Shown: piece after piece, positions 14,562 through 17,022 of the stretch
Layout: each line of letters starts with the position of its first letter
How positions within the stretch are numbered: position 1 is the first letter of the stretch
From: Deltaproteobacteria bacterium
Lineage (GTDB): Bacteria; Campylobacterota_A; Desulfurellia; JAGGSF01
DNA length: 17,100 nucleotides
Direction: 5' to 3'
Assembly: GCA_021159235.1 (NCBI GenBank)
Contig: JAGGSF010000012.1
Span: 1-17,100 of the forward strand
Translations under genes and position numbers: made by a program
Notes under the pieces: generated by a model
What the model saw: the letters and a program-made list of their open reading frames with translations, nothing else
Databases searched by the model: none
Told to the model about the DNA's origin: nothing

Positions 14562-15296
14562 TTATTTTACTATCGGTGATGCATCAGGATTAAAAGGATT
14601 TATTCTTACCGCCAGAGAATATAGATAAGGATAATGATTTTTCAGATGTTTCATATATCTCAGCCATTCACAGATTAGTAAAACATACGCCCTTTTCATG
14701 TCACCGGATATATGTTCATAATCGGCAGCAGGTAGGTGTTTCAGGTTCTTTCTTTTCTCCAGCTCATCGGTTAGGTGAAACACTGCCCAGAGGAGATCTG
14801 TAAAAGATTCATGCTCCAGCAGATTGGGATTTTCCAAGAGTCTTAATAGAAAGCCTCTTTTTTTCACAAGAAAATCGCGTAAGGGTTCCAAATCACTTCT
14901 GCGGCTATCAATTTTAAAATCACATTTTTTGGTTAGTTTCACAGCATTGGCAAAATCTTTATCCGACCAATTGTTGGTCATGATAAGTTTTTTTCTGATT
15001 TTATCAAAAGAGAGATCAAACTTGAAAAGATGACTTAAAAGCTCCGTGCCCACCTCATCACAAAAGCCTGCAGTGAGCATATTCATCTTTTCCAGCAGAT
15101 CTTTCTTTTTAATGGTACTGAGCAGTTGACCTATAACAACTGTAATCAGCAGCACAGAAATGGGAAGAAAAGCCAGCTGTGCCACTAAAAGCCTTGAAAT
15201 AAAGCGAGGTTCTCTGAAAATTACATAATGAATGATATATAAAATTATAGATATTACAATTAAAAATAAACACAGGCAGATTAATTTTCGCTTCAT
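14562..15296 (-). CDS. Conserved two-helix membrane protein of unknown function
   Basis: A 244-aa protein that I cannot assign to a characterised family. Residues 5-27 and about 36-60 are strongly hydrophobic and look like two membrane helices joined by a short polar loop ('FREPRFISR'); positive residues before helix 1 and after helix 2 suggest that both ends face the cytoplasm. The remaining ~180 residues are a charged, mostly helical cytoplasmic domain ending 'YPYLYSLAVRINPFNP'. I have the impression of similar hypothetical proteins in anaerobes, without known function. The ATG has a good ribosome binding site (AGGTGA, 9-base spacer). It is the last gene behind desulfoferrodoxin, separated by ~107 bases that hold a possible promoter, so membership of the PerR operon is uncertain. 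No catalytic motif is seen. Confidence 0.8.
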   Translation of the reverse strand: MKRKLICLCLFLIVISIILYIIHYVIFREPRFISRLLVAQLAFLPISVLLITVVIGQLLSTIKKKDLLEKMNMLTAGFCDEVGTELLSHLFKFDLSFDKIRKKLIMTNNWSDKDFANAVKLTKKCDFKIDSRRSDLEPLRDFLVKKRGFLLRLLENPNLLEHESFTDLLWAVFHLTDELEKRKNLKHLPAADYEHISGDMKRAYVLLICEWLRYMKHLKNHYPYLYSLAVRINPFNPDASPIVK

Positions 15297-15403: not shown

Positions 15404-15787
15404 TTATTTTTTCACCCATAGCCCATGGATATTACACATTTCTCTTGCCAGCACTTCTCTGCCTTCCGGCACTTCAAATACAGCTTCAGGAACATCGCCT
15501 GGACTTAAATATTTTCTATGAACCATTCCATCCACAATAATCTCTATCCACTCAATATAGTGCTTTTCTTCCATCGGGTGTAAGGCATTTTCTCCGATTT
15601 TGATCATGTACTTATTACCCTCTCTTTTTATGAACGGAACATGTTTCTCTGTAGATGTATCTGCAGTTTGCTCTTTCAATAGTTCCATGGGTTTGTTGCA
15701 ACAAACAAGTTGTCCCACTCCTTCATGCAAAACCTCAACTATGTTTCCGCAAATGTTACACTTGTAAACCCGTGATCTCTTTGTCAT
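15404..15787 (-). CDS. dfx: Desulfoferrodoxin (2Fe superoxide reductase)
   Basis: Cytosolic enzyme of 127 aa that reduces superoxide to hydrogen peroxide without releasing oxygen, the usual route in anaerobes. Both iron centres are complete. Centre I, a rubredoxin-like FeS4 site, uses Cys10, Cys13, Cys29 and Cys30 ('CNICG' and 'VCCNKP'). Centre II, the active Fe(His)4Cys site, uses His49, His70, His76, Cys118 and His121, seen in 'EKHVP', '[13 protein letters not shown]' and 'CNIHGLW'; Glu47 and Lys48 are the known active-site partners. The start has AAGGAGA with a 7-base spacer. It lies 129 bases behind the ferritin-like gene in the PerR-headed cluster. The electron donor (usually rubredoxin) is not encoded here. 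Confidence 0.97.
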
Positions 15788-15916: not shown

Positions 15917-16408
15917 TTATCTCCTCCTTTCTTCTAGGTCTTCCAATATAGCCTCAAGGTCTTCTTCGTGCTCTACCTCATCTTCAAGAATCTCTTCTGC
16001 CATGCGATAGGTAACAGTATCTTTATCTCTGGTGAAAGCCAGCAGTTTATTGTATGCTTCAATTGCACACCGTTCACCCTTTATGTTTTGTTTGAGCAGA
16101 TTTTCTACATGAGGATCTTCTGGTGCATCATAGCCGCAATTGGTCATTTTATACCAATCCTCGGGTTTCAGAATGGGTACACCGCCAAGCTGGATTATCC
16201 TCTCGGCAAGCATACCGGCATGCTTCAACTCGTCCCCTGCGTGTTCCTCAAGTTCTGCAACTACCTGTCTCCTCATATTACCTTTTGCCACTTTTGCTCC
16301 TAACCAATATTGATAATAAGCCAGCCATTCATCTGCAAATGCCTTGTTGAGTAACTCTATGAGTTTATCCACATCCAAACCCACAATTTCTCTTCCTTTT
16401 GTTCCCAT
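15917..16408 (-). CDS. Dps-like ferritin (DPSL/thioferritin type)
   Basis: Iron-storage and peroxide-consuming four-helix-bundle protein of 163 aa. The dinuclear ferroxidase site is complete in bacterioferritin style: Glu27 ('ADEW'), Glu60 and His63 ('DELKHA'), Glu112 ('GERCAIEAY'), Glu144 and His147 ('EVEH'). No heme-binding Met is evident at the usual place. Two cysteines, Cys91 in 'TNCGYDAPEDP' and Cys114 next to the Glu112 ligand, fit the Dps-like or thioferritin branch, known from archaea and some anaerobic bacteria for peroxide protection. AGGAGG with a 6-base spacer precedes the ATG, only 10 bases after the mini-nrdD stop. Oxidising Fe2+ with H2O2 would remove both the product of superoxide reductase and Fenton-active iron. 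An ordinary bacterioferritin is the alternative. Confidence 0.85.
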   Translation of the reverse strand: MGTKGREIVGLDVDKLIELLNKAFADEWLAYYQYWLGAKVAKGNMRRQVVAELEEHAGDELKHAGMLAERIIQLGGVPILKPEDWYKMTNCGYDAPEDPHVENLLKQNIKGERCAIEAYNKLLAFTRDKDTVTYRMAEEILEDEVEHEEDLEAILEDLEERRR

Positions 16409-16418
16409 CTTTTACCTC

Positions 16419-16601
16419 CTATGTTTTAAATGTTTTTCTTTCTTTGAACTCTTCCTGCTTTCCTCTATTCCACTGACCTGTAGGACGCAGGTATCCTACG
16501 CTTCTGGAAAATATCTCACACGGCGTGCCTTTCACCTCTTTCAGTTTTTCTTCCAATTTCCTAATTTTCTCCAGAATTTCCTCTTCACTCATCTTTTTCA
16601 T
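16419..16601 (-). CDS. Mini-NrdD: stand-alone glycyl-radical-domain-like small protein
   Basis: A 60-aa protein. Residues 1-24 form a charged, probably coiled helix (EEEILEKIRKLEEKLKEV). Residues 25-60 match the extreme C-terminus of class III anaerobic ribonucleotide reductase (NrdD): 'SRSVGYLRP' holds the glycyl-radical loop pattern R-x-x-G-Y-L with Gly36 at the radical position, followed by 'WNRGKQEEFKERKTF', which parallels 'FNAGKQEEVKRR' in E. coli NrdD. Only one Cys (Cys28) stands where NrdD has its CxxC zinc site, and the catalytic barrel is absent, so it cannot be a reductase by itself. The gene is real: AAGGAGG 9 bases before the ATG, a 17-base overlap with the end of perR and a 10-base gap to the ferritin-like gene. 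Databases tend to label such proteins 'anaerobic ribonucleoside-triphosphate reductase'; the function is not established. Confidence 0.88.
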   Translation of the reverse strand: MKKMSEEEILEKIRKLEEKLKEVKGTPCEIFSRSVGYLRPTGQWNRGKQEEFKERKTFKT

Positions 16602-17022
16602 TAGCTTTTTCCTCCTTCAAACATTTAGAACAAATGCCCAAAATATAAGGTTTAACCTCTTCAATTCTATGTCCATCTATCATTTTTTTTCCTACAAGAG
16701 GACATCCTTCAACATCAATATCGCAGATACGACCGCATCTGCGACAAAGAAAATGGTGATGAGGTTTGGTTTCATAGTCAAAGTGAGATTTCCCCTTTTC
16801 TATGGTTATCTCTTGGATAAGATTGTGATTTTTAAAAAGTTGCAAAGTGTTATAAATAGTGGCTTCTGAGATTGTAGGGAATCTTTTCTTCAAATCCTGA
16901 TAGATTTCTTCCGCTGTGGGATGAGTGGGGTTATTATAAAGGTATTCTAAAACTGCATAACGTTGTATAGTTACTGCAACACCTTTATTTTTGAGCAAAT
17001 CTATTTTTTCTTTCAGCTTCAT
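16585..17022 (-). CDS. perR: Peroxide-sensing repressor PerR (Fur family)
   Basis: Fur-superfamily repressor of 145 aa. The winged helix (about 1-80) includes 'GVAVTIQRYAVLEYL', 'HPTAEEIY' and 'SEATIYNTL'. The structural zinc site is Cys93, Cys96, Cys131 and Cys134 (CRRC and CSKC). Aligned to B. subtilis PerR, the regulatory iron ligands are conserved as His34 (H37), Asp82 (D85), His88 (H91), His90 (H93) and Asp101 (D104); the Asp at 101 favours PerR over Fur. The start is ATG 17022; a TTG at 17058 would add 12 residues coded by the promoter. No Shine-Dalgarno is present and the predicted start point lies at the ATG, so the message seems leaderless. A PerR box in the promoter suggests autorepression of the whole cluster until peroxide oxidises the protein. 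Confidence 0.92.
   Translation of the reverse strand: MKLKEKIDLLKNKGVAVTIQRYAVLEYLYNNPTHPTAEEIYQDLKKRFPTISEATIYNTLQLFKNHNLIQEITIEKGKSHFDYETKPHHHFLCRRCGRICDIDVEGCPLVGKKMIDGHRIEEVKPYILGICSKCLKEEKANEKDE

Follow-up and report, generated by a model that had tools for sequence, protein, structure and literature searches.

A free-standing glycyl-radical domain of class III ribonucleotide reductase in a perR operon: a candidate spare part for NrdD

Why should a perR operon contain a gene for a 60-residue protein that resembles only the radical-bearing end of an anaerobic ribonucleotide reductase? The question is raised by the window, the whole stretch of 17,100 nucleotides analysed here, whose genome is placed by taxonomy in Desulfurellia (Campylobacterota), to which Hippea and Desulfurella belong. 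Identical sequences tie the relatives G014-G016 and G023 to named Desulfurellales/Hippea records. Class III ribonucleotide reductase (RNR), NrdD, has been described as a single chain with both the active site and the glycyl radical; in class I RNR the radical is found on a separate subunit.

Oxygen destroys class III RNR through backbone cleavage at the glycyl radical (PMC2795772, PMC3019208). For pyruvate formate-lyase (PFL) spare parts have been validated, namely YfiD/GrcA of E. coli and Y06I of phage T4 only; others may exist, and the same study asks if other glycyl-radical enzymes have one (PMC8683613). The original prediction held that the window protein could play this role for class III RNR.

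A radical domain of NrdD among oxidative-stress genes

The genes of the operon follow each other in the order perR, small gene, ferritin and superoxide reductase (Table 1), and the original prediction had named these three neighbours correctly, as judged by PF01475, PF00210 and TIGR00320. The frame of the small gene overlaps that of perR, and the ferritin gene starts 10 nt past its stop codon. It is a separate gene with its own start codon and ribosome site, its 60 aa falling within the 50–75 aa of such genes in relatives. Translation may instead begin at the ATG at 16592 (57 aa), the start used in the relatives.

Table 1 Features of the perR operon and of the small gene within the window
Feature	Position	Strand	Basis or remark
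perR-like FUR-family repressor	16585..17022	(-)	PF01475 and NCBIfam PerR models; ATG at 17022
PerR-box-like palindrome TTAGAATTATTATAA	17039..17053	(.)	1 mismatch to TTATAATNATTATAA
Shine-Dalgarno AAGGAGG of the small gene, within the end of perR	16611..16617	(-)	sequence
Free-standing class III RNR glycyl-radical subunit/domain (small gene)	16419..16601	(-)	60 aa; Pfam and own-NrdD match
N-terminal helix of the small protein, residues 4-25	16527..16592	(-)	matches helical linker of own NrdD
Radical loop S-R-S-V-G-Y-L-R-P, residues 32-40	16482..16508	(-)	invariant columns
Radical glycine G36	16494-16496	(-)	glycine in every matched copy
Ferritin-like protein (archaeal Dps-like)	15917..16408	(-)	PF00210, E 1.7e-30
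Desulfoferrodoxin / superoxide reductase	15404..15787	(-)	TIGR00320, 188 bits, above cut-off

The palindrome lies 17–31 nt upstream of the perR start, and in a congener the palindrome TTAGAATTATTCTAA occupies the same place before perR. A PerR-box match with one mismatch is expected 0.36 times per window, at least one chance match being found in about one third of shuffles, and induction of the operon by PerR is putative.

What is the small protein, MKKMSEEEILEKIRKLEEKLKEVKGTPCEIFSRSVGYLRPTGQWNRGKQEEFKERKTFKT? Its residues 27–58 align with the final 31 positions, 532–562, of the Pfam family NRDD (PF13597; E 1.1e-7, 31.4 bits, cut-off 26.2), and a search of its own genome matched residues 5–59 to the C-terminus of NrdD with 75% identity over 55 aa. 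With an E-value of 5.9e-25 this is far beyond a chance match, and chance or mistranslation as the origin of the reading frame is ruled out by the E-values and the conservation. The protein carries the R-x-V-G-Y-x-R-P ... W-N-x-G-K-x-x-E-F-x-x-R radical loop of the NrdD glycyl-radical domain and retains all residues common to working NrdD (R, V, G, Y, R, P, W, N, G, K, E, R). Its sequence identifies it as the glycyl-radical domain from the C-terminus of class III RNR. This identity had been anticipated by the original prediction and holds by both matches; the motifs that it had picked out, R-x-x-G-Y-L at residues 33–38 and GKQEE at 47–51, are likewise both correct, and the radical glycine on which it depended is invariant among homologues. 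A permissive pattern, in which other small residues were allowed in place of the glycine, still returned glycine in all matched copies.

The zinc site, which in this clade reads C-x-x-H ... C-x-x-C and lies just before the loop, is absent from the small protein, which is therefore a part of NrdD and not the whole C-terminal region. The ten-stranded barrel with the catalytic cysteine of a complete class III RNR is also missing from its 60 residues. Loss of the CxxC site had seemed puzzling; the absence is real, and the puzzle is resolved by split enzymes, in which the site stays on the catalytic chain. The helical segment noticed ahead of the loop is present but not unique to this protein: the genome's own NrdD has the same segment between zinc site and radical loop, and it also matches the N-terminal helix of split radical subunits.

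NrdD with and without its own radical domain

The NrdD of the window genome is encoded by one frame of 1866 residues on contig C15 (G000, L009:634-6231) with three long, in-frame, intein-like inserts. It is fused, containing its radical domain as well as the helical segment, and ends in ...CPIHGYIPGEHPTCPVCEEEKRVEIKAEIQKLKTQLEQMKAREETSGKIKRLEKELKEVKGTPCEVFSRSVGYLRPVSQWNRGKQEEFKKRKAFKV, so the window ORF is a free extra copy. Directly upstream of nrdD lies a radical-SAM gene, presumably an NrdG-type activase. The full-length nrdD and a presumed gene for the activase, both called for by the original prediction, can hence be placed side by side in this genome, and the C-termini of NrdD and the small protein align. 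Neither a class I/II RNR catalytic domain nor a PFL-type glycyl-radical domain (PF01228) was found in the window genome and its two congeners; within the limits of this search, a free NrdD radical domain can serve only NrdD, and a spare part for PFL is ruled out. The NrdDs of the congener G001 and of the genome G009 also appear to hold an insert at the last of the intein-like sites.

In 16 genomes of the class the picture is a different one: NrdD terminates one helix beyond the zinc-site motif (CPxHG...CPxC), and a separate ORF of about 57–60 residues, in most genomes directly downstream, encodes the radical domain. Since the core ends before the loop, the radical domain is expected to work in trans in these split enzymes. 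Both congeners have such a catalytic chain without radical loop, from which the window species differs by being fused. The stop of the core and the start of the small gene overlap as ATGA in G001, while in the other congener, G002, they are at the ends of different contigs and the ribosome site of the small gene is intact. The nrdD-core contig of G002 ends just past the stop in a short GC-rich palindromic sequence (L182 end / L183 start), possibly a repeat element that has come to lie between core and radical subunit.

Comparison of the junctions suggests that a loss of about 11 nt fused core and small gene in the window species. In the unsplit NrdD of G011, a member of the class too, CPNC is followed immediately by PCEVYSRIVGYLRP, whereas the NrdD of the window species retains the coiled linker, which argues for a secondary fusion; we infer that the enzyme was split and then re-fused.

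Is the split restricted to this class? Among named records, a set biased towards the query, we classified 39 split pairs, 34 fused NrdDs and eight orphan small genes. Split pairs also occur in Elusimicrobiota, Thermodesulfobacterium hveragerdense and T. thermophilum, Deferribacterota (Calditerrivibrio), Acidobacteriota, Chloroflexota, Micrarchaeota and Thermoplasmatota. In a broad sample, NrdD was matched in 159 of 386 genomes, and by a count made by hand at least 46 of the 159 combine a loop-less core with a separate small gene: 16 in Desulfurellia and about 30 of the 137 outside. On a quick tree built from 104 catalytic chains, nine changes between the split and fused states are required, and well-supported branches force at least four of them; long branches make the exact number unsure. 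An assembly or sequencing break as the cause is ruled out by single-contig genomes (G004, G009, G086, G124, G262, G327) and by the many phyla concerned. Programmed frameshifting or stop read-through is unlikely as well: core and small gene have separate starts and ribosome sites, their frames differ in several genomes, and in some a thyX-like gene stands between them or they are on different contigs. The latter holds for G354 and G324, in which a search for a second copy of the radical gene found none. These comparisons show that most relatives, and members of many phyla, have a split NrdD whose regular second subunit is encoded by the separate 50–75-aa radical gene. The original prediction, supported in part, had missed both this regular role and the presence of the domain in phages. 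No published description of a split NrdD or of an NrdD spare part was found among open-licence PubMed Central papers.

Two further observations were made in this sample. The thyX-like thymidylate synthase gene between nrdD core and radical-subunit gene is that of G185 (L311), where it forms part of a deoxynucleotide operon. In seven genomes (G253, G113, G381, G234, G363, G166, G068) NrdD ends near profile position 531 with the radical-domain match absent or weak; these may have either divergent radical domains or further unlinked subunits.

For a structural view, the complex was represented by a tethered version, obtained by reading the split NrdD of G004 past its TAG stop, and modelled by AlphaFold2 with 40 homologues. 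The model has a mean pLDDT of 86.5 and a disordered linker, and confident helices flank the break on both sides (652–682 in the core, 703–718 in the small part). VIA-align superposes it on 8p2s_B with Z 36.4 and 2.8 A over 562 residues (model 91–756) and on T4 1h78 with Z 34.2 (model range to 740). This would put the small part at the place that the radical domain has in known class III RNRs, a matter of consistency rather than of binding, as the placement is partly imposed by the tethered read-through and the fused homologues in the alignment.

Second copies in congeners, prophages and viruses

G001 combines a split NrdD and its nrdD-linked radical gene with a second copy in a perR operon, which reads perR, DUF2249/rubredoxin, multihaem cytochrome, flavodiiron-type protein, small gene, ferritin, AhpC/TSA peroxiredoxin and superoxide reductase. 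One genus thereby holds natural split, fused and spare versions of the NrdD radical domain. The perR-operon copies of the two species share a nucleotide identity of 0.89 with each other and 0.79–0.86 with the nrdD-linked copies, so the duplication seems to be older than the two species, whose divergence amounts to about 0.2 synonymous changes per site. Between the perR-operon copies dN/dS is about 0.45 (47 codons), compared with about 0.04–0.07 for the nrdD-linked copies: by this measure the perR-operon copy is under constraint, yet a looser one. After the oxidative-stress operon, G001 has a 246-residue ORF resembling a 244-residue ORF of the window; both are of membrane type with no Pfam match (window 14562-15296 (-); L180:182-919 (-)).

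Free copies also occur outside the genus. Among 79 classified copies on IMG/VR contigs, 67 stand alone without NrdD on the locus, four are beside a core and eight are fused. Orphan copies of Elusimicrobia lie near integrase, endolysin and tail genes, and that of G041 is inside a Mu-like prophage. PHROGs has no family for the window protein, and some phage copies match full NrdD there, weakly only. The survey of neighbours suggested by the original prediction was thus borne out in the perR operon of the second species but not beyond the genus: the idea that orphan copies generally accompany oxidative-stress genes fails there, the recognisable neighbours being phage genes.

Repair, reserve or relic?

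What might the copy in the perR operon do? We consider it somewhat probable that, induced by peroxide, it provides NrdD with a replacement radical subunit, in the way that YfiD/GrcA does for PFL. PerR control would supply the small protein when needed, the radical on G36 would come from NrdG, and inside the NrdD barrel the loop would take the place of the radical domain cut by oxygen, so that dNTP synthesis could be restored without remaking the catalytic chain of 700 residues. A split enzyme would simply drop the cut piece of 57 residues and take a new one. The fused enzyme of the window species would need a free domain that displaces the stub, and the window ORF duplicates both the lost part and the helix of the stub, much as YfiD repeats a strand that PFL retains (PMC8683613). 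Four steps of this scheme are inferred: induction by PerR, formation of the radical, docking on the damaged NrdD and rescue. Several observations count against the proposal: the placement in a perR operon is known from two species of one genus and one origin, dN/dS points to looser constraint on this copy than on the nrdD-linked ones, a genome search of the third species of the genus found neither the ferritin nor a second copy, orphan copies with recognisable neighbours elsewhere keep company with phage and not with oxidative-stress genes, and the placement in the structural model is partly imposed.

The same observations leave room for other readings. In relatives it is normal for the radical domain to act in trans, and the protein might be a second isoform of the normal radical subunit that always pairs with NrdD and raises RNR capacity under stress, with no repair involved. 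Either copy could fill the site of the split NrdD in G001, but the fused NrdD of the window species leaves no vacancy unless its own domain is damaged or displaced, and we regard this reading as unlikely. Phages commonly carry such genes and no second copy was found in the third species of the genus, which would fit a duplicate of phage or intragenomic origin that is carried in the operon with little function. It appears quite improbable to us, given that the position beside ferritin has been kept in two species despite about 0.2 synonymous changes per site, and that start, ribosome site and all key residues are intact. A decoy or brake for the NrdG activase, or a sacrificial sink for radicals or oxygen, would be at home among oxygen-detoxifying operon partners and would present the loop that the activase should recognise. 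A non-working role of this kind is nevertheless very improbable, as all residues shared with working NrdD are retained and proteins of the same type are the sole radical domain of split enzymes.

How does the replacement subunit compare with known systems? Like YfiD/GrcA and Y06I it is a small free glycyl-radical domain with a segment upstream of the loop, found in bacteria and phages; unlike them its family is the PF13597 C-terminus and not PF01228, and it would serve NrdD instead of PFL. It shares radical loop and modelled position with full-length NrdD (T4, Thermotoga maritima, Prevotella copri), from which it differs in being a separate polypeptide; in this lineage, moreover, extra helices flank the break on either side. 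One RNR chain made as two gene products is also seen in the split class II NrdJa/NrdJb of Pseudomonas aeruginosa (PMC9669993, PMC4520616), whose split-off part is not radical-bearing, class II having no glycyl radical. In some phages nrdD is likewise in pieces, but phage RNR genes are broken mostly by mobile elements (introns, inteins, homing endonucleases; PMC3653736), whereas the break described here falls on a domain border and is found repeatedly, in many lineages of cellular organisms.

In a split enzyme the fragile radical part becomes cheap to replace, comparable to class I with its radical on a separate subunit, and the small protein offers a concrete, testable spare-part candidate for an enzyme that supplies DNA precursors. 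The wider picture, a two-subunit class III RNR with spare-part repair extending beyond PFL, extra copies under oxidative-stress control and phage copies sustaining dNTP synthesis, seems to us evenly balanced between right and wrong. It would suggest a function for many short phage and bacterial genes that resemble fragments of NrdD.

Some of the phage copies are longer, at about 90–150 aa, and have an extra KCxxC upstream of CEVYSRVVGYLRP (L206, L215, L220, L228, L244, L258, L260, L266), perhaps a zinc half-site of their own.
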